The notes beneath the pieces were generated by a model. That model worked only from the letters and a program-made list of their open reading frames with translations, did no database searches and was not told the origin of the DNA. Shown here piece by piece: positions 11,757-56,626 of a stretch of 64,000 bases of DNA. The DNA comes from Tardiphaga sp. (GTDB taxonomy: Bacteria; Pseudomonadota; Alphaproteobacteria; Rhizobiales; Xanthobacteraceae): assembly GCF_028290495.1 (NCBI RefSeq), contig NZ_JAQGJT010000021.1:1-64000 (forward strand), read 5' to 3'. The position numbers and the translations under genes are program-made. Every line of letters starts with the position of its first letter. Position 1 is the first letter of the stretch.

Positions 11757-11766
11757 GGTGAGGGGG

Positions 11767-17155: not shown

Positions 17156-17176
17156 ATTCTATACAGATGTTCAGGA

Positions 17177-20161
<2,985 letters not shown>

Positions 20162-33606: not shown

Positions 33607-34587
33607 TCAGATGACCAGATCGGTCACCGTCTCCTTGACGTCCGATTGATTGCCAATCAGCGAAACACCCCGCCACTGCTTTGACGTGACCAGCATCCGC
33701 GCCGTATCCCGCAATTCGATCGCAACGGCAGAAGCCGCCGGCGAAAGCAGGTTGGACGCGATCGAATACAGGTAGTTTCGCCGCGTGATGTGTGCGTCGG
33801 AGATGGACAGCGCGCGCCAGTGCTTGCCGCGCTCGCCTTCGTGCTGCAAGGCGGACATCGGTTTAATCGTGACGCCCATGCCGTCATAGACGCAGCTCAT
33901 CAGCAGCGACAGTGAATCGATTTCTGCCACCACATGGGGCGTCAGATCGCGTCGTTCGAATTCCGCCACGACTCTTCGGCGAAGGCCGTGGGTCGATGTC
34001 GGCAGAATAAGAGGCAGCGCGGCGACCTCGGTCACGGTGATGCTGGTTCGGTTGGAGGGAACCAGCGGGCTGTTCTCGGGCAACAGCAGAAACAGTTCTT
34101 CTTCCAGCAGCGGGGTCGCATCGAGCTTCGAGGAGATGTCGTTTGTGAACAGAATCGCCAGATCAAGCTGCCCCAGTCGCATCATCTGGCCGATATGTCC
34201 ACTCATGCCCTCGACGACATTGAGCAGAATGCCCGGGTGCTTCTCGTGAACGCGTCGCATCAGGGGAAGGCCGATCGCCACCACGGTTGTTGCCGGCAAT
34301 CCGAGCGAGACCATGCCACGCACTTCGCCGGCTTCCTGGCGCGCGATGCAGAGCGCCTGATCTAGCTGGCGCAGCATGAATCGGGCGTGATGATACAGCG
34401 CCATTCCGTTGTCGGTCGGCGTCACGCCACGGGCGGTGCGGATCAGGAGCGGCTTGCCGACCTCATCTTCCAGCTTGGCAAGATGTTGGCTGAGCGCCGG
34501 CTGAGCAATGAAAAGGCAGCGTGACGCTTTCGAAAAGCTTCCGCTCTCCACGATCTGGGCGAAATAACGTAACTGACGGAGGTCCAT
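33607..34587 (-). CDS. LysR-family transcriptional regulator
   Basis: The 326-residue protein has an N-terminal winged HTH (MDLRQLRYFAQIVESGSFSKASRCLFIAQPALSQHLAKLE, quoted by its ends) and a LysR substrate-binding domain (GMVSLGLPATTVVAIGLPLM onward, LDLAILF, LLLPENSPL). It closely resembles the Nac/CbbR-like group that controls catabolic operons. It is divergent from the aldehyde dehydrogenase gene across a 138-base spacer that holds two inverted repeats, so it likely controls the 34.7-48.4 kb operon with a pathway intermediate as inducer. Confidence 0.93.
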   Translation of the reverse strand: MDLRQLRYFAQIVESGSFSKASRCLFIAQPALSQHLAKLEDEVGKPLLIRTARGVTPTDNGMALYHHARFMLRQLDQALCIARQEAGEVRGMVSLGLPATTVVAIGLPLMRRVHEKHPGILLNVVEGMSGHIGQMMRLGQLDLAILFTNDISSKLDATPLLEEELFLLLPENSPLVPSNRTSITVTEVAALPLILPTSTHGLRRRVVAEFERRDLTPHVVAEIDSLSLLMSCVYDGMGVTIKPMSALQHEGERGKHWRALSISDAHITRRNYLYSIASNLLSPAASAVAIELRDTARMLVTSKQWRGVSLIGNQSDVKETVTDLVI

Positions 34588-34607
34588 AGGTCTCACACCA
34601 AAATTCT

Positions 34608-34662
34608 GAAATACCCCGAGCTATATGATGTCGTTATAGCACCCAATGCAATTCGGTATTTT
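34608..34662. promoter_or_regulatory. Nested inverted repeats: probable LysR operator
   Basis: The inner repeat is CTATA-N9-TATAG (34621-34639), which also fits the LysR T-N11-A rule. The outer pair is GAAATACC (34608-34615) and GGTATTTT (34655-34662). The sites lie midway between the divergent LysR and aldehyde dehydrogenase genes, where a LysR regulator would bind to control both. Confidence 0.6.
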
Positions 34663-34725
34663 CGTCGGGATTCGATCTACCCTAAGACCGCGATCAACAA
34701 AACAAGAAGCAGGGAGATAGACGCA

Positions 34726-36180
34726 ATGGCGATAGGCCTGGCTCATCAGTTATCGCTTGGTGATCTGCCCTCCTGCCATTTGCTGATTGCAGGAAAATGG
34801 GTTGCGGGCGCAAAAACAGCTGTCGTAACCGACAAGTTTCGTCTGAAACCCTATCTGAACGCCCAATTGCCTTCCCGCGTGCAAGTCAAGGAGTGCGTCG
34901 CAGCAGCCAACGCCGCATTCCTCGCAGATTCACTCACTCCCTATGACCGCGGCGCTATTCTTGATCGGACGGCGGCCCTGATCGAGCGCCGGGTCGACGA
35001 TCTGGTGGAAGTCCTGTGCCGCGAAGCCGGCTTTACGCGCCGCGATGCTGTCGGCGAAATCCAGCGTTGCGCCACCACGTTCCGGCTATCCGCTGAAGAA
35101 GCGCGCCGCTTTGCGGGCGACATGGTACCGATGCAGGGCGCGGCCGGGCAGGCTGGCCGGATCGGTTTTACGCTGCGCGTGCCGCTCGGCGTAATCTGCG
35201 CAATTACGCCGTTCAACGCGCCGCTTAATACCGTGGCGCATAAAGTCGGCCCGGCTCTGGCCGCGGGCAATGCCGTGGTTCTCAAGCCGTCGCTTCATAC
35301 GCCGATGACATCGTGCATCATGGCTGAGTGCCTGATCGCCGCAGGTCTTCCCGAAGGTTTGATTTCCGTCGTGCACGGCGAGAGCGAAGTGGCGCAATGG
35401 CTGCTCAACGATCCGGTCGTCAAGTTCTACGCCTTCACCGGTAGCACGGAAGTGGGGCGCTTGATCCAGTCCAGCGCAGGCCTGCGGCGCACGCAGATGG
35501 AGCTCGGGTCAATTGCGCATTGCATCCTATGCGACGATGCTGACCTCGATGTTGCGTTACCGAAAGTCATCAACGCCGGATTTCGCAAGGCGGGGCAGGT
35601 CTGCACGTCGATCCAGGTTCTGCTTGTGCATGAGTCGCTGATCGATGTCGTAGAGCGCAAACTCACGGCTTTGGTCAAGGCGCTGCCTTATGGAGATCCG
35701 GCCGACGACCGGACTGTCGTAGGTCCGGTGATCAGCGAAGTGGCGGCCAAACGCATCGAATCCTGGATCGGGATGGCGATCGCCGCCGGCGCGCGTCGTC
35801 TTGTCGGCGATGAGCGCCGCGGATCGGTAGTGCCGCCCACCTTGCTCGCCGACGTCGACAAGGGCACGCCGCTCGGATGTCAGGAAGTATTCGGCCCCGT
35901 GATGTGTATCTCGCCATTCTCCAGTCTGGACGAGGCGATCGCGCGAGTGAACGCAACACCGTACGGCCTGGCGACAGGGATCTTCACCCAGAATCTCGGT
36001 GGAGCGATGCTCGCTGCGCGGAAACTGCAGGTCGGCGGCGTCCATATCAACGAGACGCCGAGTTCGCGGGTTGATCTGATGCCGTACGGCGGATCGAAGG
36101 ACAGCGGATTTGGCCGTGAAGGACCACATTACGCTATTCGTGAGATGAGTGAAGAACGCATGGTCACCATTCTGGCTTGA
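34726..36180 (+). CDS. NAD(P)-dependent aldehyde dehydrogenase
   Basis: This enzyme oxidises an aldehyde to an acid. The 484-residue protein has the cofactor site ITPFNAPLNTVAHKVGPALAAGNAVVLKPS (quoted by parts FNAPLN and AAGNAVVLKPS), FTGSTEVG, the general-base Glu in MELGS, and the catalytic Cys in KAGQVCTSIQ. The C-terminal VHINETPSSRVDLMPYGGSKDSGFGREG resembles the branch with phosphonoacetaldehyde, lactaldehyde and succinate-semialdehyde dehydrogenases. The usual LELGGKSP loop is MELGSIAH here. It is the first gene of the operon; AGGGAGATAGACGC precedes ATG 34726. Confidence 0.93.
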   Translation: MAIGLAHQLSLGDLPSCHLLIAGKWVAGAKTAVVTDKFRLKPYLNAQLPSRVQVKECVAAANAAFLADSLTPYDRGAILDRTAALIERRVDDLVEVLCREAGFTRRDAVGEIQRCATTFRLSAEEARRFAGDMVPMQGAAGQAGRIGFTLRVPLGVICAITPFNAPLNTVAHKVGPALAAGNAVVLKPSLHTPMTSCIMAECLIAAGLPEGLISVVHGESEVAQWLLNDPVVKFYAFTGSTEVGRLIQSSAGLRRTQMELGSIAHCILCDDADLDVALPKVINAGFRKAGQVCTSIQVLLVHESLIDVVERKLTALVKALPYGDPADDRTVVGPVISEVAAKRIESWIGMAIAAGARRLVGDERRGSVVPPTLLADVDKGTPLGCQEVFGPVMCISPFSSLDEAIARVNATPYGLATGIFTQNLGGAMLAARKLQVGGVHINETPSSRVDLMPYGGSKDSGFGREGPHYAIREMSEERMVTILA

Positions 36181-36212
36181 GGCCACGCGTCGAAAATGAA
36201 CAGGAATAAACT

Positions 36213-38003
36213 ATGACCAAGATGAAGGGCGGCGAAGTCATCGCCGAGTATCTCGTCAAGCAAAAGGTGCCCTTTGTTTTCGGTATCTGCGGCCACGGCA
36301 ACGTCGGTATTCTCGATGCGCTGCACAGCGTGCGCGATCAGGTCAAACTAATATCGCCCCGTCATGAACAGTGCGCCGGCCACATGGCAGACGCTTACTT
36401 CCGCGTGAAGCATCGTCCGGTTGCGACGCTGACATCCACCGGGCCGGGCTCGGCGAACATGGTGATGTCATTGGCTACCGCGCTCTCGGACTCGTCGGCC
36501 TTTCTGGCGATCACAGCCAACGTTCCGACGTCGCAAGCGAACCGCGGCCCATTTCAGGAGCTCTATGCCCACAACCAGTCGGATTTCGCGCAGGTTCTGC
36601 GACCGGTCGTCAAGCGCTCGTTCCAACCCAGCCGCGTCGATATGCTGCCACTCGCGCTCCGGCAGGCCTTCGATACGATGGTCACGGGCCGCCCGGGTCC
36701 GGTGAACATAGACATTCCCTACAACGTGTTCCAGGAAGAGGCCGACGTCGAACTGCCGGCGTTGTCCCATGTTCATGGTGCGCACCGGCCAAGCGCGAGC
36801 GAGGCTGACATCAAGGCTGCGCTCGATCTGCTGGCGCAGTCCAAGCGCCCGGTGTTCTTCATCGGCCAGGGAACGACGCTGGCGGAGGCCGGCCCCGAAA
36901 TCGCCGCGCTGCAGAAGACGCTCGGCATTCCGGTCATCACCTCGCCAAACGGTATGGGCTGCGTGCCTTCCGAGGATCCGCTGACGCTCGGCTTCATTGG
37001 TCGCAACGGCGCCTATCCCGCCAATCAGGCCGGCCGCTTCGCCGATCTGGTGATCTGCATCGGTACGCGCTTCGACGACCGCTCGTCATCAAGCTGGCAC
37101 GCCGGCTATTCTTGGAATTTTCCCGGCACCAAATTGCTCCAGGTCGATATCGATCCAACCGAGTTGGGTCGTAACTACCCGCCGACGCTCGGCATCATCG
37201 CCGACGCCAAGGTGTTCGCGGCCCAGCTCATTGTCGGCCTGCCGAAGCGCAGCGAGATCTCCCGCGAGAACTTCGGGGATTGGCGCGCCGACGTAGCGAC
37301 GTGGCAGGCCGAGTGGGAAGCCTTCATCCGCCCAAACTTCACATCTGTGACAACGCCGATCCGCCCCGAATACGTCGTCGATGCATTGATGGATGTGTTG
37401 CCGGATGATGTGATCCTGTCGCTCGACTCCGGCGTGCATCACAACTGGTTCATGCAGTTCTGGAAGCCGAAGCGCGCGCAGAGCATGCTCAACAGCTGGG
37501 GTTACTCGTCGATGGGCTTTGGCGTCTGCGGCGTGCTCGGCGCGCAGCTCGCAGCACCCGATCGGCCTTGCGTGGCCGTGGTCGGCGATGGTGGTTTCAT
37601 GATGGCGCCTTACGTCGTCGCAACCGCCGTGGAATATGACCTGCCGTGCATCTGGATCGTCTGGAATAATTTTGCTTGGGGGGCCATTCGCGACATCCAG
37701 TATGGCCTGTTCGAAGGTCGCGAGATCGGCACCGCCTTCTACAAGGGCAACCAGGGCCCGGGCGGCGAGCGCTACAATCCGGATTTTGCAGCGTGGGCCC
37801 GCGCCTGCGGCGCGGATGGGGTCACCGTCACACGCAGCGAAGACCTGCGCGGTGCCGTCGAGACCGCCATCAAGAATCGTCGACCGTGCGTCATCGACCT
37901 GCACGTCGATTCCGAAGTGCGGCCGCCGTCGACCGGCACCTGGGAGCTGCCGCCGATTCCCTTCAAGGAACCGGTTTTCGGCAAGCCGCACCGCACGAGC
38001 TGA
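36213..38003 (+). CDS. ThDP-dependent enzyme with IolD-like GHGNV motif
   Basis: The 596-residue protein has all three domains of the acetolactate-synthase superfamily. The N-terminal domain has FGICGHGNVGILDAL and the cofactor-activating Glu in PRHEQCAGHMADAY. The C-terminal domain has the ThDP motif VGDGGFMMAP...WNN. GHGNV is typical of IolD, the trihydroxycyclohexanedione hydrolase of inositol breakdown, rather than of acetolactate synthase or Xsc. It could cleave a cyclic or linear 1,2-diketone or 2-oxo acid. It follows the aldehyde dehydrogenase by 32 bases and precedes a binding-protein gene. Confidence 0.88.
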   Translation: MTKMKGGEVIAEYLVKQKVPFVFGICGHGNVGILDALHSVRDQVKLISPRHEQCAGHMADAYFRVKHRPVATLTSTGPGSANMVMSLATALSDSSAFLAITANVPTSQANRGPFQELYAHNQSDFAQVLRPVVKRSFQPSRVDMLPLALRQAFDTMVTGRPGPVNIDIPYNVFQEEADVELPALSHVHGAHRPSASEADIKAALDLLAQSKRPVFFIGQGTTLAEAGPEIAALQKTLGIPVITSPNGMGCVPSEDPLTLGFIGRNGAYPANQAGRFADLVICIGTRFDDRSSSSWHAGYSWNFPGTKLLQVDIDPTELGRNYPPTLGIIADAKVFAAQLIVGLPKRSEISRENFGDWRADVATWQAEWEAFIRPNFTSVTTPIRPEYVVDALMDVLPDDVILSLDSGVHHNWFMQFWKPKRAQSMLNSWGYSSMGFGVCGVLGAQLAAPDRPCVAVVGDGGFMMAPYVVATAVEYDLPCIWIVWNNFAWGAIRDIQYGLFEGREIGTAFYKGNQGPGGERYNPDFAAWARACGADGVTVTRSEDLRGAVETAIKNRRPCVIDLHVDSEVRPPSTGTWELPPIPFKEPVFGKPHRTS

Positions 38004-38050
38004 GCGAAAAACAAAAAAACTAGAAACGATCAAACCAGGGAGGAAGAGCA

Positions 38051-39289
38051 ATGACGAGGATGAATCCGCAGCGACGATCGCTGATCCGTACGTTGGCTGG
38101 TGTTGCCGCGCTTTCGGCCGTTGGCTGGAGTGCGGCCGCTTGTGCCCAGGCCGAAGGCCCCATCCGCATTGGCCTGATCTACTCGAAGCAGGGGCCAGGC
38201 GCGGCGATCGGCCAGTATCTGCAGCGCGGCAGCGAACTGGCTGTCGAACAGGTCGGGCGAAAAGTTCTCGGCCGGCCGATTGAGCTGGTCTGGCTCGACG
38301 AGCCGAACCCGCAGGTCTCACAGCAGAACATGCAGCGGCTGGTTGACGAGAACAAGGTCATCGCCGTCGTCGGCGGAAATTACAGCTCGTCGGCGCTGGC
38401 GATGATGAGCGTCGCCAACCGCGAGAAGATTCCGTTGATTTTGACTGGTGCCGCGGCCAGCGAAATCACTGGCAAGAGCTGCAGCCGCTACACGTTCCGC
38501 ACCCAGGCCACCGTTCCCGTGCAGATGAAGGGTCTGATGCCCTACGTGTCGCAGCTCGGCAAGAAAGTCTATTTCCTGACGGCATCCTATGCGTTTGGCC
38601 AGGACATCCTGCGCTCGTCGCGCGCGCTGCTGAAGGAAAACGGCGCAACCGAGGTCGGCGTCGATGAGGTGCCGATCAACACCGCCGACTACAGCTCCTA
38701 CATCCTCAAGATACGCCAGGCCAAGCCTGATGTGATCGTCGGTGGACTGGTCGGCGGCGACTTCTCCAACTTCATGAAGCAGTGGAACGAGATGGGGATG
38801 AAAGACAAGATCCCCTATGCCGCGATCGCTGTCACCGACACCGACTTCTGGGACGTCGGGCCCCAGGCATCGACCGGTATCTATGTGAAGCCGTGGTACT
38901 ATAACAATCCGAAGAATACCGAGGTCGAGAAGAAGATGATGGCCGACTTCACCAAGAAGTACAACGAGCCGCCATCCGACAAGACCTGGTCGGGCTGGAT
39001 CGGCATGCGCGCTCTGCTGGAGTCGATCGAAGCGGCGAAGTCCACCGACTCCAAGGCGATCGTGACGCAGCTCGAGAAATGGAAGAACGCCGAAGGCGAG
39101 ATCCCGTTCTTCTTCCGCGACTGGGATCACCAGATGGTGCGTCCTGCCGTCATCGTCGGCGTGAAGAAGCAGATCACCGACAAGTGGGATTACTTCGACG
39201 TGCTCAAGAACACGTCAGCCTCCGAGGCCGACACCGCAACGGCTTTTGGCACCAAGGAAGAAATCGGCTGTCCGATGCCCGCTCTGTGA
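38051..39289 (+). CDS. ABC transporter substrate-binding protein, branched-chain amino acid type
   Basis: The 412-residue protein has a periplasmic-binding fold of the LivJ group: PIRIGLIYSKQGPGAAIGQYLQRGSELAVEQVG near the start (in parts), DENKVIAVVGGNYSSSALAM, and SYAFGQDILRSSRALLKENGA. The N terminus reads NPQRRSLIRTLAGVAAL, a twin-arginine-type signal, with cleavage near ACAQA. Members of this group bind amino acids, aromatic acids, amides and other catabolic substrates. GGGAGGAAGAGC precedes ATG 38051. The permease and ATPase genes follow directly. Confidence 0.93.
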   Translation: MTRMNPQRRSLIRTLAGVAALSAVGWSAAACAQAEGPIRIGLIYSKQGPGAAIGQYLQRGSELAVEQVGRKVLGRPIELVWLDEPNPQVSQQNMQRLVDENKVIAVVGGNYSSSALAMMSVANREKIPLILTGAAASEITGKSCSRYTFRTQATVPVQMKGLMPYVSQLGKKVYFLTASYAFGQDILRSSRALLKENGATEVGVDEVPINTADYSSYILKIRQAKPDVIVGGLVGGDFSNFMKQWNEMGMKDKIPYAAIAVTDTDFWDVGPQASTGIYVKPWYYNNPKNTEVEKKMMADFTKKYNEPPSDKTWSGWIGMRALLESIEAAKSTDSKAIVTQLEKWKNAEGEIPFFFRDWDHQMVRPAVIVGVKKQITDKWDYFDVLKNTSASEADTATAFGTKEEIGCPMPAL

Positions 39290-39342
39290 GCGTGCCTGAC
39301 GACCGCTGATCTTTGCCCGGCAGACTCCGAACGGATGGAAAC

Positions 39343-40212
39343 ATGTTAGATGCTCTTGTCTCACAGACGGCGAATGGCCTCGTTCTCGGGTTCGTTTACG
39401 TCCTGATTGCTGTGGGGCTTTCCATCACCTTCGGGCTGCTGGGTGTCATCAACTTCGCGCACGGTGCCTTCTTTGCGCTGGGTGCTTATGTGGCCTGGCA
39501 GCTCTATCAGCTGTTCGGCTGGTGGGCGGTGATCCTGGCGCCGCCGATCGTCGGCGTTGTCGGCATGTTGATAGAGGCGACGATCATCCGTCGCCTCTAC
39601 GGCAAGGAGCCGCTGCTCAGCTTGATCGTCACCTTCGCTTTGGCGTTGCTGATCGAGGCCCTGATACGGTACGGCTGGGGCGCCGACGGCAAGCCGTTCA
39701 ACCCGCCGCCTTTCCTCAGCGGCATCGTTGAAATCGGCCCGCTGCTGATTACCAAGTATCGCGTTGCCGTACTGGGCATCACGATCGCCACGCTTCTCGC
39801 GCTGTGGGCGTTCCTGGTCTGGACACCGTATGGACGAGTTCTCCGTGCCGGCAGCCGCGATCCGGAGATGGTCGAACTGCTCGGCATCAATCTGCCGCGC
39901 GTGTTGACGGCGGTGTTCGGCCTCGGTTGCGCGCTCGCGGCCATCGCCGGTGTACTCGCCGCGCCGCTGTGGACGGTGTCGCCATCGATGGCCGCCAACG
40001 CGGTAATGCCGGCTTTCGTCGTCGTCGCGATCGGTGGTCTCGGCTCGCTGCGCGGCGCCGTCGTCGCGGGGCTCGCGGTCGGTGTCGTGACGTCGCTCAC
40101 CATTCAGTTTTGGCCAGAAGCGGCCGCCGCTTCGATGTACGTCCTCATGTTCGCCATCATGCTGATCCGGCCGCGCGGCTTGTTCGGCGAGCGCTGGGAG
40201 CGCTTCGAATGA
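39343..40212 (+). CDS. ABC transporter permease, LivH type
   Basis: This 289-residue membrane protein forms one half of the channel. It has about eight membrane segments and the LivH pattern GLVLGFVYVLIAVGLSITFGLLGVINFAHGAFF (in parts: YVLIAVGLSITFGLLG, INFAHGAFF), and ends MLIRPRGLFGERWERFE. ATG 39343 is chosen as the conserved start. The stop overlaps the ATG of the next gene as ATGA at 40209-40212, so the permease halves are coupled. Confidence 0.94.
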   Translation: MLDALVSQTANGLVLGFVYVLIAVGLSITFGLLGVINFAHGAFFALGAYVAWQLYQLFGWWAVILAPPIVGVVGMLIEATIIRRLYGKEPLLSLIVTFALALLIEALIRYGWGADGKPFNPPPFLSGIVEIGPLLITKYRVAVLGITIATLLALWAFLVWTPYGRVLRAGSRDPEMVELLGINLPRVLTAVFGLGCALAAIAGVLAAPLWTVSPSMAANAVMPAFVVVAIGGLGSLRGAVVAGLAVGVVTSLTIQFWPEAAAASMYVLMFAIMLIRPRGLFGERWERFE

Positions 40213-42773
40213 AATCCGAATCATCCATCTTGCGTCGTCTCTGGGATAATCCGATCGTTGTCATGGCGGTAGTGCTTGTTGCCGCCACCGGCATCGCACT
40301 CGCCACCGGCATGCCCATCCACCGCATTACGCAGATCGCGATCTACACGCTCTATGCCGGCGGCGTGAACTTCCTGATCGGCTATCTCGGCCTGGTGCCG
40401 TTCGGTGCGTCATTCTTTTTTGGCTGCGCCAGCTATGCGCTTGCGATCCTCGGCGGTACCGGCTGGGGCGGAAACGAACTGACTGGCATAGCCATCGCCG
40501 TCCTGTTTTCGCTATTCCTTGCCTTTTGTGTAGGCGCCGTGATCCTGCGCCGCCGCGGGCTGTATTTCTCGTTGTTGACCTTGGCCTGTTCGCAAATAGC
40601 GTTTGAAGTCGCCTTCAAATGGACCTCGGTGACAGGTGGCGAAAACGGCTTGCAGAACGTCGAGCGGCCGCTGTTCGCCTCGGCGAATACCTTCCATGTC
40701 TTCTCGCTGGTGGTCGTGTTGGGAACCTTGTTGCTGGTGTGGCGGCTGGTTCACGCGCCGTTCGGGCGCCTGATGCAGGCGGTTCGCGACAACGAGCAAC
40801 GCGTTGCCAGCCTCGGCTACAATACGTACTGGACCAAGCTGATCGCCCTCACCATCGCCGGCGGCGTGATCGGCCTGGCCGGCGGCCTGATGGCGCTGCT
40901 GCTGCAGGGTGTCTACGCGAATAATCTGAGCTGGCAGCATGCCGGAGACCCCGTACTGATGGCGGCGCTCGGCGGCGTGCATCACTTCCTCGGCCCGCTC
41001 TGGGGCGCCATCATCTTCATCGTGCTGGAAGACCGGCTCAGCGCCTTCACCGAAAACTGGTGGCTGTTCTTCGCGCCGATCATCATTGCCTTTGCATTGT
41101 TGTCGCACGAAGGCGTGCAGGGGATTTTTCAGCGCTTCATCCGCCGTGACCGCTGGACCCTGACGCGGATCGGCATTCCACCGCGTCCCGACAGGGTCAC
41201 GCCGTACGCACCGGCTGTCATGCAGCAGAACAACACCGGCGCGCCGATCCTTGAAGTTCGCAATCTCTCCAAGCGGTTCGGCTCCATCGTGACGCAGAAC
41301 GACATTTCGCTGCAGATGAGCCGCACCGGCCTACACAGCCTGATCGGTCCGAACGGCGCCGGCAAGACCACGTTTTTCAACGTGCTCACCGGCGTCCATC
41401 AAGCCGATGGCGGCAGCATCCTGTTCGACGGCCAGTCGATCGGGCATCTGTCTCCCTATAAGCGGGCGCGGCTGGGCATGTCGCGTTCGTTCCAGATCCT
41501 CAGCGTGTTCCCCAACCTGACGGCATTCGAGAACGTCCGCATCGCGGTGCAGGCGGCGAACCGGCAGTGGGGCGGGTTCTGGCGCGACGCCTATGCCAAC
41601 GACGCGGCGAATGAGCGCGTCTGGTCGCTGCTTGACGCGGTCGGGCTGGCCGACCGCGCGGCCGAGCTGTGCTCGTCGCTGGCACACGGCGAGAAGCGGT
41701 TGCTGGAAATCGCAGTTTCGCTTGCGACCAATGCCAAGCTGCTGCTGCTCGATGAACCGCTCGCAGGCCTGGCCGAATCCGATCGAAAGATCGTCGGTGA
41801 ACTGATCCAGCGCCTGGCGCGCACGCATGCCGTGCTGCTGATCGAGCACGATATCGATCGGGTGCTGGCGATGTCGGACCGCATCACGGTGCTGCACCAG
41901 GGCCGCCTGATCGCCGACGGTAAGCCATCCGACGTCGCGGGGCATCCGGAGGTGGTCGTTGCCTATCTGGGCCAGGCGCATGGCACGGTGGAAGTAGCTC
42001 CGCGCGCGGCTCGGCAGAGCACTGCGACGGCCGGTGCGAAAGAAACGCCATTGCTGAAGGTCGAAGGCGTGAGCGCCGGCTATGGCGGCGGCACCGTGCT
42101 GGACGGGCTTGACCTCACCGTGCTGCCCGGCGAGGTCGTGGCGCTGCTGGGCCGCAATGGCGTCGGCAAGACCACCGCCTTGCGCGCCATCACCGGTACG
42201 CTGCCGCTGTCCGCTGGACGGATTACGTTCGATGGCGTCGATGTCAGCCGAATGCGGCCGAACGAGATCAACCGGCTCGGCATCGCGCTGGTGCCGGAAG
42301 GGCGGCGTCTGTTCCCGAACCTCACGGTGCAGGAAAATCTGAAGATCGCGGCGCGCCCCGGTGGCGCGTCGCAGGAAGAGATCTGCGACCTGTTCCCGAA
42401 GCTCAGATTGCTGATGAAGTCGCGCGCCGAGAACCTGTCGGGCGGCGAAAGGCAGATGGTGGCGATTTCGCGCGCGCTGATGGTGCCGAGCCGGCTGATC
42501 CTGCTGGACGAACCCTTCGAAGGCCTGGCGCCGACGGTGGTGAGCGAGGTCCGTCAGGCCGTCGCCAAGCTGACGACGCGCGCCAGCCTGGTGATCGTCG
42601 AGCATCACGCCGAAAGCGTGCTGGCGATGGCCGATCGCGCCTACGTGCTGGTCAACGGACGCGTGGCGTTTGCCGGGGCCGCCGAGACGCTCGCTGCCGA
42701 CAAGGCGCTGCAGGAGCGGTTACTCGGAATCACCAAGGCGGCAGATCCGCAGCCCAGCGCAAAGGCCGTGTGA
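40209..42773 (+). CDS. Fused ABC transporter: LivM permease + LivG ATPase + LivF ATPase
   Basis: One frame of 854 residues carries three proteins that are normally separate. Residues 1 to about 325 are a LivM permease (GGVNFLIGYLGLVPFGASFF, SLLTLACSQIAFE, GGVIGLAGGLMALL). Residues about 345-600 are a LivG ATPase (Walker A GPNGAGKTT, RSFQILSVFPNLTAFENV, LLLLDEPLAGLAESD; signature region SSLAHGEKRLLEIA). Residues about 613-854 are a LivF ATPase (GRNGVGKTT, ENLSGGERQMVAISRALM, LLDEPFEGLAP). There is no stop codon or frame change between them. It overlaps LivH (ATGA) and the next gene (TGATG). Confidence 0.92.
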   Translation: MKSESSILRRLWDNPIVVMAVVLVAATGIALATGMPIHRITQIAIYTLYAGGVNFLIGYLGLVPFGASFFFGCASYALAILGGTGWGGNELTGIAIAVLFSLFLAFCVGAVILRRRGLYFSLLTLACSQIAFEVAFKWTSVTGGENGLQNVERPLFASANTFHVFSLVVVLGTLLLVWRLVHAPFGRLMQAVRDNEQRVASLGYNTYWTKLIALTIAGGVIGLAGGLMALLLQGVYANNLSWQHAGDPVLMAALGGVHHFLGPLWGAIIFIVLEDRLSAFTENWWLFFAPIIIAFALLSHEGVQGIFQRFIRRDRWTLTRIGIPPRPDRVTPYAPAVMQQNNTGAPILEVRNLSKRFGSIVTQNDISLQMSRTGLHSLIGPNGAGKTTFFNVLTGVHQADGGSILFDGQSIGHLSPYKRARLGMSRSFQILSVFPNLTAFENVRIAVQAANRQWGGFWRDAYANDAANERVWSLLDAVGLADRAAELCSSLAHGEKRLLEIAVSLATNAKLLLLDEPLAGLAESDRKIVGELIQRLARTHAVLLIEHDIDRVLAMSDRITVLHQGRLIADGKPSDVAGHPEVVVAYLGQAHGTVEVAPRAARQSTATAGAKETPLLKVEGVSAGYGGGTVLDGLDLTVLPGEVVALLGRNGVGKTTALRAITGTLPLSAGRITFDGVDVSRMRPNEINRLGIALVPEGRRLFPNLTVQENLKIAARPGGASQEEICDLFPKLRLLMKSRAENLSGGERQMVAISRALMVPSRLILLDEPFEGLAPTVVSEVRQAVAKLTTRASLVIVEHHAESVLAMADRAYVLVNGRVAFAGAAETLAADKALQERLLGITKAADPQPSAKAV

Positions 42774-43609
42774 TGGCGCGAGAACTTGGTATCAACACCT
42801 ATGGCTACATCTGGTCGATGTCCGCGGCAGACTGCGCGCGGCGTCTCGCCGGGCTCAACTACCGGCAGTTCGAATTCTTGCTGCAGCCGCCGCATCTGCC
42901 GCTTGACGACTTTGGTGCCGAAAAACGCCGCGACCTGAAAATGGTTCTGGACGATGTTGGTGCGAAACGCACGGCGCTCAACCTGCCGAGCCTCGATCAC
43001 AATCTGGCCAGCCCGTTCTCGCGCGTCCGGGCGGCGTCGGTGCAGATGCTGGCCGACTCCGTCGATCTCGCCGGCGATCTTGGCGCTGAATGGCTTGTCG
43101 TCGTGCCCGGTCGCATGAGTCCGCTGTTCCCGCCATCGCCGCAAGATCGCATCGACTGGCTGACCGACGGCGTGTCAAAATTGCTGCGACGCGCCGAGGC
43201 GCGCGGCGTCGGCCTGGCTATCGAGAATGTGCCCTTCGCGGGCCTGCCGGACGCCGCCTCTCTCGGCTGTTTCGTGCGCAGCTTTAATTCGCCCTCGATC
43301 AAGGTTTGCTACGACGCGGCGAACGCGCATTTTATCGGCGAGTCGCCGGCCGATGGCATCAGGCAACTCGCCGATCTCTTGCGCATCGTGCATCTGTCCG
43401 ACACCACGCGCACCAATTGGCGCCATGATCCCGTCGGCAACGGGGACGTGCCGTTCGCCGAAGTCGCGGCAGCGCTCGATGCCGTCGACTTTGACGGTGC
43501 CGTAACACTGGAAATTCTCGATCACGATCCCGACGCTGGTATTCTTCGCAGCCATCGCGCTCTGACGCCGCTTGGCTTCACGCAGTGTGCACCGGTGAGG
43601 TCGTCATGA
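42773..43609 (+). CDS. Sugar phosphate isomerase/epimerase-type TIM barrel protein
   Basis: The 278-residue protein belongs to the AP-endonuclease-2/xylose-isomerase-like TIM barrels, which include IolE, IolI and related dehydratases and epimerases. It shows LGINTYGYIWSMSAADC at the start, GVGLAIENVPF with a likely metal-binding Glu, VCYDAANAHFIGESP, RIVHLSDTTRTNWRHDPVGNGDVPF and VTLEILDHDP. The ATG at 42773 overlaps the transporter stop (TGATG) and its own stop overlaps the next ATG, so it is translated with its neighbours. The substrate is unknown. Confidence 0.88.
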   Translation: MARELGINTYGYIWSMSAADCARRLAGLNYRQFEFLLQPPHLPLDDFGAEKRRDLKMVLDDVGAKRTALNLPSLDHNLASPFSRVRAASVQMLADSVDLAGDLGAEWLVVVPGRMSPLFPPSPQDRIDWLTDGVSKLLRRAEARGVGLAIENVPFAGLPDAASLGCFVRSFNSPSIKVCYDAANAHFIGESPADGIRQLADLLRIVHLSDTTRTNWRHDPVGNGDVPFAEVAAALDAVDFDGAVTLEILDHDPDAGILRSHRALTPLGFTQCAPVRSS

Positions 43610-44520
43610 GCGCTATTCTCGTCACTGGTGCAGCCGGCCTGCTCGGGCGTTTCGTCGTGAGCGACTTGCTGGCGCATGGCCACAATGTGCGGGGCCTCGA
43701 CCGTCGGCAAGGCGACAGCGATATCGAGTGGCATGTCGGGGACGTCACGTCTCCCGAACTGGTGCAGCGCGCGATGGCCGGCGTCGATGCCGTGCTGCAT
43801 ATCGCGGCGATCCCGAACATCTGGTCCGGCGACGGCCAGACCATCATGCGCGTTAACCTGCTCGGCACCTACACCGTATTCGACGCCGCCGAGGCAGCGG
43901 GCGTGAATCGTGTCGTGTTCTGCTCCAGCGACTCGGTCGCGGGCTACACTGTCAGGGAAGGGCGGATGTTGCCGCCGCGCTATGCTCCGCTCGATCTCGA
44001 TCATCCGCTGCTGGCGACCGACCCCTATGCGATCAGCAAGGTGCTGGGCGAGGATATGGCGCGCGCCTATGCGCTGCGCGGCATGTCCGTTATCGCGTTG
44101 CGTACCGTGTTCGTCGCCTATCCAGAGATGGCCAGCGAGATCGTCGCCCGGGCCGAAGATCCGGCGGCCTATCGCGGGCCGATGGTCGGCGGTCCATCAT
44201 CAGCCGGCGGCGGGCCGCTGTATCACCACATCGATGCGCGCGATCTCGCGCGCGCGTTCCGTCTGGCGTTCGAGCTGAAGCTGGAGCCCGGTGTGTTCGA
44301 GCAGTTCTACCTCTCCGCGCAGGTCACGCTGTCACCCGAGCCGACGCTTGATCGGCTGCGCCGGCTGCACGGCGACGCCGTCGAGATCCGTGATCCCGGT
44401 GTTTATGCCGCCCAGCCTTTTGCGCCACTTTACGATCTCACCCACGCGGCTGACCGCCTGGGGTTCGTCGCAGAATACGACCAGCGACATCTGCTCGCCG
44501 GCCTGCCTGCATTTTCCTGA
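43606..44520 (+). CDS. NAD-dependent epimerase/dehydratase-type enzyme (first of two)
   Basis: The 304-residue extended SDR has the NAD motif VTGAAGLLGRFVV and HIAAIPNIWSGDG. The active-site tyrosine-lysine is in DPYAISKVLGEDMAR. Family members include uronate dehydrogenase and sugar epimerases. The ATG overlaps the upstream stop (ATGA at 43606-43609). The cupin gene follows 10 bases later. A second, related enzyme lies at 44959. Confidence 0.9.
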   Translation: MSAILVTGAAGLLGRFVVSDLLAHGHNVRGLDRRQGDSDIEWHVGDVTSPELVQRAMAGVDAVLHIAAIPNIWSGDGQTIMRVNLLGTYTVFDAAEAAGVNRVVFCSSDSVAGYTVREGRMLPPRYAPLDLDHPLLATDPYAISKVLGEDMARAYALRGMSVIALRTVFVAYPEMASEIVARAEDPAAYRGPMVGGPSSAGGGPLYHHIDARDLARAFRLAFELKLEPGVFEQFYLSAQVTLSPEPTLDRLRRLHGDAVEIRDPGVYAAQPFAPLYDLTHAADRLGFVAEYDQRHLLAGLPAFS

Positions 44521-44530
44521 GGAGCTACCC

Positions 44531-44953
44531 ATGACCATCGTTGTTCCCAAAGCGGACGCCTTCGCCGATGCCGGCGAAAAGAAATACGCGGTGACGCGAA
44601 ATCTGGCCGAGTTGCGCTGGATTCAGTATCCCGGCCATTTCGAGCAGGCGCTGTCCAAGGCGATCGTCACGCCGGCGACGGTCGGCAGCCGGTTCTTCGA
44701 TCACCGCATCTCGTCGTATGAGCCCGGCGCCTACGTCGAAAGCCACGTCCACAAGGTGCAGGAGCAGATCTACCACGTGCTGAGCGGCGAGGGCGTGCTG
44801 ACCGTCGACGGCGAGGATCGCCTCGTCCGCGCCAATGACGTGACCTACATTCCGCCAGGCGTCGTGCATGAGTTCCACTGCACCGGAAACGACAATCTGG
44901 TGTTCCTGGTCATCACCAGCCCGCCCTCGGATGAAGAGCAGCAGCCGCGGTGA
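44531..44953 (+). CDS. Cupin-domain protein
   Basis: The 140-residue protein has a single cupin barrel. Motif one is PGAYVESHVHKVQEQIYHVLSGEG, quoted here as ESHVHKVQEQIYH, with two histidines and Gln/Glu metal ligands. Motif two is YIPPGVVHEFHCTGND with a further histidine. Such small cupins are isomerases, dioxygenases or metal-dependent lyases. GAGGAGCTACCC precedes ATG 44531. In inositol catabolism a cupin-like isomerase (IolB) acts in a similar setting, but sequence alone does not link the two. Confidence 0.9.
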   Translation: MTIVVPKADAFADAGEKKYAVTRNLAELRWIQYPGHFEQALSKAIVTPATVGSRFFDHRISSYEPGAYVESHVHKVQEQIYHVLSGEGVLTVDGEDRLVRANDVTYIPPGVVHEFHCTGNDNLVFLVITSPPSDEEQQPR

Positions 44954-44958
44954 CCTCC

Positions 44959-45927
44959 ATGAACAAGAAGATATTGGTCACGGGCGCGTGCGGCTGGCTG
45001 GGAACGGCGATCGTACAAGCATTGCTGGATCGCGGCGACAGCGTCGTCGCGACCGACCTCGCAATCGCACCGGCGATTGCGATATTGGCCGAATCCAAGC
45101 CACGACTCGTTGCCGCCGCGGCCGACCTCGGCGAATGGCATCAACTGGTTCGCCTGTTCGAGACGCACCGCCCCGATGCCGTCATCCACGCGGCGGCGGT
45201 CGTCGGCGTGATCCAGGCGATGGACATCCCGATCAAGGCGCTTCGTGCGAACGTGGAAGGCTCGGTCAACCTGTTCGAGGCGATGCGCCTGCACGGGGTG
45301 AAGCGCGTTATTCATGTCAGCACCGAGGAGACCTACGGCGACTTTCAGTCGCCCTTGATCGACGAGGATCACCCACAGAAGCCGCTGAGCGTCTACGGGC
45401 TCACCAAGCTCGCTGCCGAGCATTATGGTCGCGTCTATTCCCGCGACCACGGGCTGGAATGCATCAACGTGCGGACCTGCTGGGTCTATGGCCCGCATCT
45501 CCCAAGGCTGCGTATGCCGCGAACCTACGTCGAGGCGGCGTTACGCGGCGATCCGTTCCATCAGGCCGACGGTGGCGATCTCGCGGTCGATCAGGTCTAT
45601 ATCGCCGACACCGTCGCCGGCGCTCTGCTGGCGCTGGACAAGCCGGTGCATCGCTTCGATGCCTACAACATCGCCACCGGCGTGGCACCGACGCTGCGCG
45701 ACACGGCGGACGCGGTCAATCGTGCCATTCCCGGAGCGCAGATAACGGTCGGGGACAGCGGCCCGTACCGTCACGGCGGCAAGGTGCTCAGCGCCGTGAA
45801 GGGCGCGCTTGATATCAGCCGTGCCAGAGCTGAGCTCGGTTATGAACCGCGCTACGACTTGCAACGCGGCATTGAGGCCACGATCGAAGCGACGCGCGAG
45901 CGTCTCGCCAAAGCCTCGTCGCCCTAG
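44959..45927 (+). CDS. NAD-dependent epimerase/dehydratase-type enzyme (second of two)
   Basis: The 322-residue extended SDR has KILVTGACGWLGTAIVQALL, VIHAAAVVGVIQAMD, and the active site SVYGLTKLAAEHYGRVY. The C terminus has VKGALDISRARAELGYEPRYDL, as in sugar-nucleotide epimerases. The frame is open to GTG 44950; I chose ATG 44959 because the protein then begins MNKKILVTG. It is only distantly similar to the gene at 43606, so the two probably act on different steps. Confidence 0.9.
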   Translation: MNKKILVTGACGWLGTAIVQALLDRGDSVVATDLAIAPAIAILAESKPRLVAAAADLGEWHQLVRLFETHRPDAVIHAAAVVGVIQAMDIPIKALRANVEGSVNLFEAMRLHGVKRVIHVSTEETYGDFQSPLIDEDHPQKPLSVYGLTKLAAEHYGRVYSRDHGLECINVRTCWVYGPHLPRLRMPRTYVEAALRGDPFHQADGGDLAVDQVYIADTVAGALLALDKPVHRFDAYNIATGVAPTLRDTADAVNRAIPGAQITVGDSGPYRHGGKVLSAVKGALDISRARAELGYEPRYDLQRGIEATIEATRERLAKASSP

Positions 45928-45983
45928 CTGCGGACGTCCGCTTCTTCGCCGCTCCGGCTTCCAACCATTTCCAGGAATATCCA

Positions 45984-46694
45984 ATGACCAGTTCATCGCC
46001 CGTCGTCATCATCTTCGGAGGCTCCCGCGGCATCGGCGCCGCCTGTGCCTCGGCCTTCGCCACTGCCGGCTGGCAGGTCTGCACCACCAGCACGTCGGCC
46101 TCGTCGAAGGCCGCGCATGGCCAGAACTACCAGGCCGACATTCGCGATGCGGCGTCTGTTGCCAGCGTGTTCGAGCAGGCCAGGGCGCAATTCGGCACGG
46201 CGCCGCAGGCGGTGATCGCCAATGCCGGCATCAACGTGCCGGGCGCGCCGGTCGGGAGCTTTAAGCCCGACGACTTCCGCCAATTGATGGAAGTCAACGT
46301 GATTGGCGCCTTCAACGTGCTGGCAGAAGCGGCGCGCCAGGTTCGCGACGGCGGCTCCATCGTCGCCATCACGACCTCGCTGGTCCGCCATGTGGTACCT
46401 GGCACCGGCCCCTATGCCGCCACCAAAGCCGCGGTCGAAAGCCTGGTGCGCGCGATGGCGAAGGAACTGTCCGGTCGCAATATTCGCGTCAACGGCGTCG
46501 CGCCGGGTCCGGTCGATACTGATTTGTTCAACGCCGGCAAGACCGACCAAGTGAAGGCGCGGATGGCGGCGTTCAGCCCGTTCAACCGCATCGGCCGGCC
46601 GGAAGAGATCGCCGAAGTCGTGCAATTCCTGGCCTCCGACAAGGCCTCCTGGATCCAGGGCCAGATCGTGCAGCCCAACGGCGGCATGGTTTGA
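45984..46694 (+). CDS. Short-chain dehydrogenase/reductase
   Basis: The 236-residue protein has the Rossmann motif IFGGSRGIGAACASAF, NAGINVPGAP, the catalytic Ser in ITTSLVRH, and Tyr-Lys in GPYAATKAAVESLVRAMAKEL (in parts). The C terminus SWIQGQIVQPNGGM is typical of ketoacyl-reductase-like SDRs. The stop overlaps the next ATG at 46694. It is likely to oxidise or reduce a ring or chain hydroxyl group in the pathway. Confidence 0.94.
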   Translation: MTSSSPVVIIFGGSRGIGAACASAFATAGWQVCTTSTSASSKAAHGQNYQADIRDAASVASVFEQARAQFGTAPQAVIANAGINVPGAPVGSFKPDDFRQLMEVNVIGAFNVLAEAARQVRDGGSIVAITTSLVRHVVPGTGPYAATKAAVESLVRAMAKELSGRNIRVNGVAPGPVDTDLFNAGKTDQVKARMAAFSPFNRIGRPEEIAEVVQFLASDKASWIQGQIVQPNGGMV

Positions 46695-48406
46695 TGAAAG
46701 ACGGCCCCGCCACCGGCGACGTCTGGGACGTGATCGTCGTCGGCAGCGGTGCCGGCGGCCTCACGGCTGCCAGCGTTGCGGCCGCGGAGGGATGTTCGGT
46801 TTTGCTGCTTGAGCAGGCCGATGTGGTTGGCGGTACCACCGCGATATCCGGCGGCATGGTGTGGATACCCGCCAACCACAAGGCAGCGGCTGCGCAGCGC
46901 GCCGATAGTCTCGAGGCCGCACGGACCTATCTGGCCGCGACTGTGCCCGGGCAAGACCGGACCCGGCTTGAAGCGTTTCTCGCGCATGGCGACGACGCGA
47001 TCCGAGACCTTGAGGCGCGGACGTCACTGCGGCTGCAGCCAGTGCTCACCTATCCCGATTACTATCCCAATCTGCCAGGCGCGACATCCGGCGGCCGCGT
47101 GCTCGAACCCGTCCCGTTCGATGCCCGCGCGCTCGGCGAGGCTTTCGCACTGGTGCGCAATCCGCTGCCGGAATTTATGCTGCTCGGCGGCATGATGATC
47201 AGCCGCGCCGACATTCCGCATTTGCGCCGCGTCACGCGCTCGCTGCGCGCGGCCTGGCATGTCGGCAAGCTGCTGCTGAAATACGGCATACAGCGCCTGC
47301 GCGCGCGCCGCGGGACCACGCTGTATCTCGGCAATGCTTTGGTGGCGCGGCTGCTGAAATCCGCGCTTGATCTCGGGGTGACGCTTCGGACCGAGCACGC
47401 GGTCGAGCGCCTGGTGACCGACACGCAGGGCCGCGTCTGCGGTCTCGAGATCCGCGATAGCGCGGGACAGACGAAGGCGCTTCAGGCGCGCCGCGGCGTG
47501 GTGCTGGCAACTGGCGGCATCTCGCATGATTCCGAACTCCGCAGCGGCTACGTGCCCGGCAGCGCGGGGAATCTAACCGCAACAGTCTCGCCCGGAAAGG
47601 CGGTATGCGGCGCCCGTCTAGCGCGGGGTATCGGCGGAAAGTTGTCGGATCCGACCAATGACGGCGCGTTCTGGGTCCCGGCCTCGACCTTCACGCGAAG
47701 CAACGGCAGCCGCGGCGTCTACCCGCACACGGTGACAGACCGAGCTAAGCCTGGCCTGATCGCCGTCGATTCGAACGGCCAGCGTTTCGTCAACGAGGCC
47801 GTCTCCTATCATGAGTTTGTGCGCGCGCAACTGTCGAATGCGAATAGCGCCATTCCAGCTTGGCTGATTTGCGACAGTCGCTTCCTCTGGAAATACGGCC
47901 TCGGCAAGATCAAGCCATTCACGCTTGCAATTAAGCCGGACATCGATTCAGGCTACCTGAAGCGCGCCGATACGCCGGAAGCATTGGCCAAGCTGATCGA
48001 TGTCTCGCCAAGCGCGCTGCAGGAGACGATCGCCAACTTTAATCGACACGCCCAAACCGGCCACGATCCAAAGTTCGGCCGCGGCGGCAACATCTACCAG
48101 CGCTCGCTGGGCGATGCCGAACAGCAGCCCAACCCCTGCGTAGCCCCGTTGAAACAGGCGCCTTATTATGCCGTGGCGGTCTATCCGGCCGACCTTGGCA
48201 TGTCGGCCGGCATCGTGACCGACGCCCATGCGCGCGTCCTTGCCGCGGACGGGGCACTCGTCGCAGGGCTTTATGCTTGCGGCAACGATATGGCTTCAAT
48301 CATGGAAGGCGCCTATCCCGGCCCCGGTATCACCCTCGGACCTGCAATAACCTTTGGCTGGCTGGCGGGGCGACAGGTTGCCGACGACCGGTCTAGGCAA
48401 AATTGA
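46694..48406 (+). CDS. FAD-dependent dehydrogenase (KstD / fumarate-reductase flavoprotein type)
   Basis: The 570-residue flavoprotein has the FAD-binding motif VIVVGSGAGGLTAASVAAAEG and VGGTTAISGGMVWIP. The C-terminal blocks LYACGNDMASIMEGAYPGPGITLGPAITFGW resemble 3-ketosteroid delta-1-dehydrogenases and related enzymes that place a double bond next to a keto group. There is no signal peptide and no heme motif. Its ATG overlaps the SDR stop. It is the last gene of the operon; the following 600 bases hold no clear gene. Confidence 0.92.
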   Translation: MKDGPATGDVWDVIVVGSGAGGLTAASVAAAEGCSVLLLEQADVVGGTTAISGGMVWIPANHKAAAAQRADSLEAARTYLAATVPGQDRTRLEAFLAHGDDAIRDLEARTSLRLQPVLTYPDYYPNLPGATSGGRVLEPVPFDARALGEAFALVRNPLPEFMLLGGMMISRADIPHLRRVTRSLRAAWHVGKLLLKYGIQRLRARRGTTLYLGNALVARLLKSALDLGVTLRTEHAVERLVTDTQGRVCGLEIRDSAGQTKALQARRGVVLATGGISHDSELRSGYVPGSAGNLTATVSPGKAVCGARLARGIGGKLSDPTNDGAFWVPASTFTRSNGSRGVYPHTVTDRAKPGLIAVDSNGQRFVNEAVSYHEFVRAQLSNANSAIPAWLICDSRFLWKYGLGKIKPFTLAIKPDIDSGYLKRADTPEALAKLIDVSPSALQETIANFNRHAQTGHDPKFGRGGNIYQRSLGDAEQQPNPCVAPLKQAPYYAVAVYPADLGMSAGIVTDAHARVLAADGALVAGLYACGNDMASIMEGAYPGPGITLGPAITFGWLAGRQVADDRSRQN

Positions 48407-49384: not shown

Positions 49385-49443
49385 CGATCCACCTGTTGAA
49401 TTCTGCAAATGATCCACCCAGATCTGTCGTTAGAGGATTTGTC

Positions 49444-55649: not shown

Positions 55650-55653
55650 GTAA

Positions 55654-56583: not shown

Positions 56584-56626
56584 CAGCTATTGGCTCCCGG
56601 CGTCCGGTACGAAATCTGGAGATGCA

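Follow-up and report, generated by a model that had tools for sequence, protein, structure and literature searches.

Genetic organization of the operon

The analysis described here concerns a putative catabolic operon of Tardiphaga sp., including a gene for a thiamine diphosphate (ThDP)-dependent enzyme, located within a 64,000 nt stretch of contig NZ_JAQGJT010000021.1 (positions 1 to 64,000; referred to here as the window). Family assignments using Pfam and NCBIfam showed that the operon consists of a minus-strand gene for a LysR-type regulator and eleven plus-strand genes (34726 to 48406), all of which are open reading frames without interruption. The initial annotation covered positions 34588-48406, an interval that opens with the gap between the LysR gene and the aldehyde dehydrogenase (ALDH) gene, the LysR gene itself being located just before it. 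The gene order and candidate operator that it described were borne out, and its proposal of one catabolic unit with its own importer was supported.

The regulator (Pfam LysR_substrate and HTH_1) is encoded at 33607-34587 from an ATG start codon, or up to 34596 from a GTG, and its homologue is divergent from the ALDH gene in many relatives. The plus-strand genes commence with those for the ALDH (34726-36180; Aldedh, 449.5 bits) and the ThDP-dependent enzyme (36213-38003), the latter characterized by three TPP domains (Pfam), a GHGNV motif containing His28 and a separate position in phylogenetic trees. These are followed by the genes for a LivK-type periplasmic binding protein (38051-39289; Peripla_BP_6, 265.5 bits), a LivH-type permease (39343-40212; BPD_transp_2, 138 bits) and an 854 aa LivM-LivG-LivF fusion of a permease and two ATPases (40209-42773; BPD_transp_2 at residues 40-296 and two ABC_tran stretches), which exceeded the cut-offs of generic ATPase models only (UrtD, UrtE and LptB). 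The remaining genes encode an AP_endonuc_2 TIM barrel (42770-43609; 126 bits), a first extended short-chain dehydrogenase/reductase (SDR) of family PF01370 (43606-44520; Epimerase, 108 bits), a small cupin (44531-44953 from an ATG start codon; Cupin_2, 68 bits, as scored on the translation from 44525), a second PF01370 SDR (44950-45927; Epimerase, 154 bits), a classical SDR dehydrogenase (45984-46694; NCBIfam SDR models, the best being PRK07231 with 166 of 215 bits, the second value here and below being the cut-off of the model) and a KstD-like flavin adenine dinucleotide (FAD)-dependent dehydrogenase (46691 from a TTG or 46694 from an ATG start codon, to 48406; PRK12843, 661 of 758 bits).

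Overlaps of 1-4 bases, described in the initial annotation for many junctions, were found at 5 of the 10 gene junctions as 4-base overlaps; three of these five depend on GTG or TTG start codons, and the ATG alternative gives a 1-base overlap in two. A weak terminator-like stem-loop is located on the plus strand at 48808-48825, 400 bases past the operon, in a region where the consensus scan found 15 such elements compared with 11.7 expected. None of the enzymes of the operon exceeded the cut-off of any of its best 25 NCBIfam models, and no operon step therefore carries a curated name.

The gap between the LysR and ALDH genes (34588-34725) contains a perfect dyad, GCTATA-N9-TATAGC (GCTATATGATGTCGTTATAGC), at 34620-34640. 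Twenty LysR-ALDH gaps were aligned, among which three pairs each represent one contig entered twice. All 12 half-site bases were matched in 6 of the 20 gaps and at most one mismatch was present in 15; the remaining gaps have two (L093), three (L094 and L100) or four (L096 and L097) half-site mismatches. Downstream of the dyad, a GTATT-containing block commencing at about 34643 was present in 18 of the 20 gaps. Judged by this sequence conservation, the dyad appears to be a real, conserved operator candidate.

Phylogenetic position of the ThDP-dependent enzyme

The ThDP-dependent enzyme scored below the cut-off of each curated family to which it was compared. The best NCBIfam model was acetolactate synthase (ALS; TIGR00118, 379.2 of 538.35 bits), on which the genome's own ALS, encoded on another contig (C199), scores 806.8; lower scores were obtained for sulfoacetaldehyde acetyltransferase (Xsc; TIGR03457, 266.4 of 676.4 bits) and IolD (TIGR04377, 262.3 of 715 bits). 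A sulfonate route via Xsc was rejected, the ThDP-dependent enzyme and the ALDH being below the Xsc and SafD cut-offs, respectively.

Two phylogenetic trees, of 35 rows (careful method) and 48 rows (quick method) and both built without cyclohexane-1,2-dione hydrolase and Xsc sequences, were compared. In the 35-row tree, the window enzyme was located in its own 20-row clade (support 100/100) and not inside the IolD clade. A firm grouping inside a known family, which would have refuted the initial annotation, was not observed with the cut-offs and with these trees, from which cyclohexane-1,2-dione hydrolase and Xsc are absent. Its sister, joined at 92/89, comprises five rows, including Azoarcus KH32C and locus L079, with ThDP-dependent enzymes that are 33-35% identical to that of the window. 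A 31-row superclade (100/99), from which ALS, Gcl and PoxB are separate, unites the window clade with its sister, IolD and four cyclitol-type rows. The quick tree yielded the same groups, with a superclade support of only 86. Members of the superclade include ThDP genes located beside genes for scyllo-inosose dehydrogenase and methylmalonate-semialdehyde dehydrogenase (MMSDH) in Natrinema, and beside an inositol monophosphatase gene in R. etli.

The GHGNV motif occupies residues 27-31 of the window enzyme. The 48-row alignment sets the IolD motif one column off, and an 11-row alignment restores it to register with that of the window enzyme. His28 of the GHG motif was observed in 27/27 clade, 2/2 sister and 4/4 cyclitol-type rows, compared with 0/11 other ThDP proteins in the 48-row alignment. 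A GHG or GHT motif was likewise found in 116 of the 117 ThDP proteins called in the loci described below, the exception being a split gene (L044). The predicted structure (pLDDT 74.7, i.e. moderate) matched many ThDP enzymes about equally, and the fold of this model is therefore no guide to whether the chemistry is IolD-like or ALS-like.

From its sequence, the enzyme is proposed to act as a ring-opening C-C hydrolase. For the mechanism class, the reading that fits best, and a fairly probable one, is that an oxidised alicycle is opened in the manner of IolD. The superclade and the GHG motif thus support the earlier proposal of a probably carbocyclic substrate, an IolD-like ThDP step and subsequent aldehyde oxidation. 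The clade itself is a well-bounded, testable family, even should its substrate be another cyclitol. Conversely, the close likeness to inositol breakdown suggested in the initial annotation was ruled out by the curated cut-offs and the tree position: besides IolD (262 of 715 bits), the ALDH scored 220 of 448.5 bits on the MMSDH model, and no match to IolB or IolE was found in the operon at E≤0.001.

Distribution and conservation of the gene set

The ThDP protein was matched at E≤1e-100 in 80 of the 296 genomes of the window's bacterial family, 30 of which hold a match of at least 55% identity. A scan of one genome per species identified at least 80 ThDP loci with 74-92% identity, mostly in Betaproteobacteria (e.g. 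Hydrogenophaga, Variovorax, Rubrivivax, Limnohabitans and Polaromonas), with additional matches in Bradyrhizobiaceae, Azospirillum and Methylobacterium; the closest relative among the matches listed was Tardiphaga robiniae (92%). The twelve genes were observed in the same order on plasmid pMNOD01 of M. nodulans and in several other genomes. In Neorhizobium NCHU2750, the genes from ALDH through SDR are in order and the KstD homologue is located 22 kb away, behind tcuR-TcuA-TcuB.

Partner genes (≥40% identity and ≥60% coverage) were counted in 120 loci carrying the ThDP gene and in 40 control regions. ALDH and cupin genes were each found in 82 of the 120 loci, followed by SDR (64), LivH (61), LysR (53) and KstD (44), and by the second (31) and first (25) PF01370 genes, LivM-G-F (23), the binding protein (23) and the TIM barrel (21). 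At these thresholds, none of the twelve families was present in the 40 control regions, which were taken at round coordinates from the window's own bacterial family, whereas the 120 loci are mostly betaproteobacterial by title. Seven of the 120 loci overlap in DNA with another member of the set; in three cases, the contig is one that was entered twice. As the partners recur around the ThDP gene, in many orders, and are absent from the controls, the gene set is not a product of chance.

Gene arrangement was examined in the 81 loci in which the ThDP gene is flanked by 7 kb or more on both sides, some arrangements being cut by the ends of the stretches. The eight enzyme families occurred in 34 different arrangements, with ALDH in 61 loci, cupin in 56, SDR in 42, KstD-like in 32, TIM barrel in 24, and the second and first PF01370 enzymes in 22 and 18, respectively; in 11 loci, the ThDP gene was accompanied by none of the seven other families. 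Based on the partner counts in loci and controls, the core is therefore composed of the SDR, cupin, ThDP-dependent enzyme and ALDH, often together with the KstD-like protein and a Liv- or TctC-type importer. The genes for the TIM barrel and the PF01370 enzymes seem to form an accessory module.

Several loci exhibited further features. In a clustering of neighbouring genes based on codon-based gene calling, a Peripla_BP_4 ribose-binding-like protein is encoded near the ThDP set in 30 of 115 loci (e.g. L159:12633-13529 and L144:12597-13544), by eye without a signal peptide; a cytosolic sugar-binding protein of this type is unusual in a catabolic operon. Plasmid pUSP3 of Aminobacter sp. MSH1 (L041), typed as conjugative, carries two ThDP-dependent enzymes of the clade only a few genes apart (10547-12349 and 16001-17782; 51% and 63% identical to the window enzyme, respectively), as well as an ATP-citrate-lyase-like pair and an S-(hydroxymethyl)glutathione dehydrogenase gene. 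In p-SCP2 of Ponticoccus alexandrii (L044), the ThDP gene (415-2162) is annotated in two pieces within an otherwise full cluster that adjoins conjugation genes.

Predicted functions of the other operon proteins

The best NCBIfam model for the ALDH was lactaldehyde dehydrogenase (376.5 of 650 bits). An alignment of 13 TIM barrel sequences revealed that D182, H208 and E248 are invariant and E152 nearly so, and these four residues are presumed to form a metal site. The predicted TIM barrel structure (pLDDT 92.4) was closest to 3wqo, a D-tagatose 3-epimerase-like fold (TM 0.82-0.87), an observation that also weighs against a close inositol likeness; the protein is probably a keto-sugar or keto-cyclitol epimerase or dehydratase. 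The first PF01370 SDR matched PDB entry 4id9 with 93 bits and, distantly, uronate dehydrogenase 3rft with 47 bits, its sequence being that of a probable polyol or hemiacetal dehydrogenase. The PDB relatives of the binding protein are generic amino-acid-type binding proteins, and no ligand can be inferred from them.

PRK12843, on which the KstD-like protein scored best, is a model of FAD-dependent oxidoreductases. The protein also scored 352.7 bits against the 3-oxosteroid 1-dehydrogenase 7p18, which is what could be expected if the operon degraded a steroid-like, terpenoid-like or aromatic compound, with the KstD-like protein leading. This is a very improbable function: the operon has no oxygenase, coenzyme A (CoA) ligase or beta-oxidation gene, the KstD cut-offs were missed (PRK07843, 415.8 of 788 bits; PRK12844, 467 of 789 bits), and no more than 44 of the 120 loci have a KstD-like gene close to the ThDP gene. 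In the reading developed below, the flavoprotein would instead oxidise ring carbons of an alicyclic compound.

Shikimate/quinate-type neighbours in the sister clade

The sister clade is represented by six loci, namely that of Azoarcus KH32C (L202), L079, which belongs to the window's bacterial family, and L211-L214, which come from 4 of 398 genomes across the phylum. Shikimate/quinate- or citrate-type genes were found in five of these six. The KH32C locus encodes a QuiC-like TIM barrel (156 of 1200 bits), a CoA transferase, citryl-CoA lyase (460.7 of 261), the ThDP-dependent enzyme, a shikimate-dehydrogenase-like protein (161 of 252) and AroD (209.5 of 139.3). Locus L211 holds a two-domain QuiC-like protein (452.6 of 1200), shikimate dehydrogenase (347.9 of 235), citryl-CoA lyase (437.6 of 261), a TIM barrel, an acylating-ALDH-like protein (411 of 600), the ThDP-dependent enzyme, AroQ (184.6 of 169.85) and, by eye, a TRAP (tripartite ATP-independent periplasmic)-type transporter. 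An AroE-like protein (135 of 252), a TIM barrel, the ThDP-dependent enzyme, an acylating-ALDH-like protein (396 of 600), 3-hydroxy-3-methylglutaryl-CoA lyase (317 of 246) and a QuiC-like protein (479 of 1200) are encoded at L079. Both L212 and L214 contain citryl-CoA lyase and QuiC-like matches, and L213 only a TIM barrel, an ALDH and an HpaI-type aldolase, by eye. All QuiC-like proteins of these loci are under the 1200-bit cut-off.

Citryl-CoA lyase was thus found in four of the six sister-clade loci, one of these being the query itself, compared with 0/120 window-clade loci and 0/40 controls. Within the window clade, a type II dehydroquinase is present in L042 and L044, and a QuiC-type TIM barrel in L076, the deepest row of the clade, and L077. 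The control regions contained a QuiC-like gene in 1/40 (L234) and a PrpD-like gene in 1/40 (L252).

Two findings new to this analysis, namely the sister-clade operons and the tricarboxylate genes located nearby in some of the relatives (described below), suggest that the ring is carboxylated and not that of a plain cyclitol. Alternatively, the enzyme could open a cyclitol or inositol derivative that carries no carboxyl group, such as O-methyl inositol, quercitol or inosamine, as IolD opens trihydroxycyclohexanedione; the tricarboxylate genes would then belong to separate catabolic functions located on the same islands. The superclade with IolD, and the ThDP genes of Natrinema and R. etli beside inositol-type genes, argue for this possibility, as does the ThDP gene of L043, located about 13 kb from iol genes; moreover, the window genome and 291 others of the 296 have no IolD match at E≤1e-250, so that an alternative route could be useful. 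Since the operon has no iol-type equivalog, the sister clade is of the shikimate/quinate type in 5/6 loci and part of the relatives have citrate-type neighbours, a plain cyclitol is considered a rather unlikely substrate. A carboxylated alicycle is tentatively preferred.

Tricarboxylate- and citrate-type neighbours

TcuB was encoded near the ThDP gene in 18 of the 120 loci and in 0/40 controls, and TcuA (≥57% identity) in 17 of the 120, eight further TcuA matches of 30-35% identity being other flavoproteins that were left out of this count. Tcu representatives exceeded the curated cut-offs (TcuA, 772.9 of 369 bits; TcuB, 690.5 of 524 bits). In the family of genome G684, a ThDP match at E≤1e-150 was found in 5 of 150 genomes, all five of which have TcuB over the cut-off compared with 42/150 overall, and in three the ThDP and TcuB genes are on one contig within 10 kb; these five, a small sample, include the centre genome, one match that is only 45% identical and one with an internal stop, and two of them (the centre genome and G683) were already in the locus set. 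TcuB was also over the cut-off in 29 of the 32 genomes behind hand-picked ThDP loci (33 of 80), 11 of the 33 being already known for a nearby TcuB. TcuB was rejected as a general partner, there being no enrichment in the window's own family, where it occurs in 10/30 carriers (ThDP match ≥55%) compared with 115/296 genomes overall. Being frequent in the G684 family and not enriched in that of the window, TcuAB is a frequent partner in some lineages and not a universal one.

Other neighbours of this type include LigK in the Neorhizobium locus (218 of 179 bits), PrpB in L104 (525 of 353 bits), the ATP-citrate-lyase-like pair of Aminobacter, a citrate-synthase domain in L097, and, in L138, a CitE-like protein (143.8 of 443 bits) accompanied by an acyl-CoA ligase and by a gene that was judged PrpD-like by eye. 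In L106 (12714-18796), the ThDP and cupin genes are followed by genes for a major facilitator superfamily transporter (lactate-type model, under the cut-off) and formate dehydrogenase (alpha subunit, 720 of 666 bits), hinting at one-carbon release in that lineage. LigK is also present elsewhere in the window genome, away from the operon.

An acyclic substrate may likewise be envisaged, in which case a branched polycarboxylate would be degraded without any ring opening and the ThDP-dependent enzyme would serve as a keto-acid decarboxylase, lyase or carboligase. TctC-type receptors (by eye; annotated in L042) and TcuAB beside many relatives are consistent with such a route, as are the ALS model as best NCBIfam hit (379 of 538 bits) and the solved structure closest to the enzyme, the hydroxy-keto-acid synthase BbmA. 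The trees, however, set the enzyme apart from ALS and Gcl, the His28 motif is missing from ALS/Gcl-type enzymes, and the TIM barrel and sugar-type dehydrogenases suit a polyol, making an acyclic role unlikely.

Proposed pathway

The reading to which we tentatively give preference is that the operon may degrade an oxidised alicycle, likely carboxylated and of the shikimate/quinate type, through an IolD-like opening that would yield a tricarboxylate product. From the observed gene content and its conservation, the clade, His28, the operator and the neighbouring genes, we infer the following substrate, products and order of steps. The LivKHMGF-type importer would bring in an alicycle in oxidised form, the likeliest candidate being a carboxylated cyclohexane polyol or a close analogue, and the ring carbons of this compound may be oxidised by the SDR, the KstD-like flavoprotein and the two PF01370 dehydrogenases. 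Acting alone or with the cupin, the TIM barrel would epimerise, dehydrate or tautomerise the ketone to a vicinal dione or ketol, and the ThDP-dependent enzyme would open the ring by oxygen-free C-C cleavage, in the manner of IolD and cyclohexane-1,2-dione hydrolase. Oxidation of the aldehyde end by the ALDH could then give a citrate-like tricarboxylate that enters the tricarboxylic acid (TCA) cycle, the product presumably being tricarballylate in TcuAB-carrying relatives.

The citrate-type neighbour enzymes fit the arithmetic of a C4 loss, by which the quinate ring would give citrate, the shikimate ring aconitate and the dihydroshikimate ring tricarballylate. A more specific version, possible yet doubtful, is an oxygenase-free and non-aromatising shikimate/quinate route in which a dione is opened by the ThDP hydrolase and one ring carbon is removed to yield citrate, aconitate or tricarballylate; the sister clade would end this route with an acylating ALDH and citryl-CoA lyase, and the window branch with an ALDH and, in some members, TcuAB.

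Several observations weigh against the preferred reading. Pfam and NCBIfam revealed no AroE, QuiC or dehydroquinase in the window operon, and AroD, AroE and citryl-CoA lyase were found in 0/120 window-clade loci, QuiC-like proteins and AroQ in two each; with these counts near nil, the shikimate link depends chiefly on the sister clade, with its identity of only 33-35% and a joining support of 92/89. TcuAB is not located beside the window operon, the genome's copy being on another contig (C91), and TcuB is not enriched among carriers in the window's family. LigK, PrpB, the CitE-like protein, the ATP-citrate-lyase-like pair and formate dehydrogenase each occur in a single locus. In addition, the TIM barrel model is nearest to epimerases and not dehydratases, the solved structures closest to the ThDP-dependent enzyme by both sequence and model are BbmA and then acetohydroxyacid synthases, and the best-placed entry for cyclohexane-1,2-dione hydrolase is 30th in the fold list.

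If the proposed route is correct, thiamine-based hydrolytic ring opening feeding the TCA cycle would represent a second principle for quinate/shikimate breakdown, present in soil, freshwater, plant-associated and marine bacteria (by record titles), and would provide a function for many genes that now bear the label 'acetolactate synthase' or 'thiamine pyrophosphate-binding protein'.

Genes flanking the operon

Upstream of the operon, a queuosine-synthesis gene and Tgt overlap by 4 bases (28089-30301). A protein with a cyclic-nucleotide-binding domain is encoded 1 kb downstream (49396-49905), and the minus strand carries, at 53314-57958, a further Liv-type importer that includes a binding protein, near an FAD-linked oxidase (59250-60728).

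Comparison with known systems

Open-access full-text keyword searches, with most subscription journals outside their scope, returned no published pathway with a matching gene set, in line with the initial annotation, which knew of none. Mycosporine-like amino acids and gadusol were considered for their ring likeness, and nothing relevant was found in an open-access keyword search.

The myo-inositol pathway resembles the window operon in that IolD, a 3D-(3,5/4)-trihydroxycyclohexane-1,2-dione acylhydrolase, is a ThDP enzyme of the same superclade with a GHGNV motif, and in that ALDH, TIM barrel and cupin genes adjoin. However, the window enzyme forms a separate long branch, and the curated models listed do not identify the operon's ALDH, TIM barrel and cupin as IolA, IolE and IolB, respectively, nor did any of its dehydrogenases exceed the cut-off of an IolG model among those listed. 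We know of no iol counterpart of the two PF01370 enzymes, the SDR, the KstD-like protein or the Liv-type importer. A Natrinema plasmid (L205, 1477-15591) encodes a haloarchaeal ThDP enzyme that is 37% identical to that of the window, together with MMSDH, Gfo/Idh/MocA proteins, TIM barrels and an annotated scyllo-inosose 3-dehydrogenase. This may be an archaeal route for inositol that uses a ThDP enzyme other than IolD.

Cyclohexane-1,2-dione hydrolase, which belongs to the cyclohexane-1,2-diol pathway of Azoarcus, is described as catalysing ThDP-dependent C-C cleavage of a cyclic dione (PMC12247030), with a His28 that matters for the reaction and is altered in a pyruvate-ligating variant (PMC12247030, PMC8541089). 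The window enzyme has detectable homology to it (2pgn, 149 bits) and a His28 at the same residue number; phmmer aligns residue 4 with chain residue 4 of 2pgn, and the correspondence of His28 is one of residue number. The hydrolase is nevertheless not among the closest relatives of the window enzyme by sequence or fold.

Known quinate and shikimate breakdown proceeds to protocatechuate and then through ring-cleaving dioxygenases. The sister-clade loci resemble the QuiC route in holding shikimate dehydrogenase, dehydroquinase and QuiC-like proteins, whereas the window operon lacks such genes and its genome has no QuiC over the cut-off; to our knowledge, neither a ThDP-dependent enzyme nor citryl-CoA lyase is part of that route. 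Tricarballylate utilisation is represented by TcuB beside 18/120 loci, but in the window genome by TcuAB on another contig. Finally, BbmA and the acetolactate synthases are the closest solved sequences and folds to the window enzyme, which nevertheless remains under the ALS cut-off and carries its His28 motif where BbmA has GIPGGPL.

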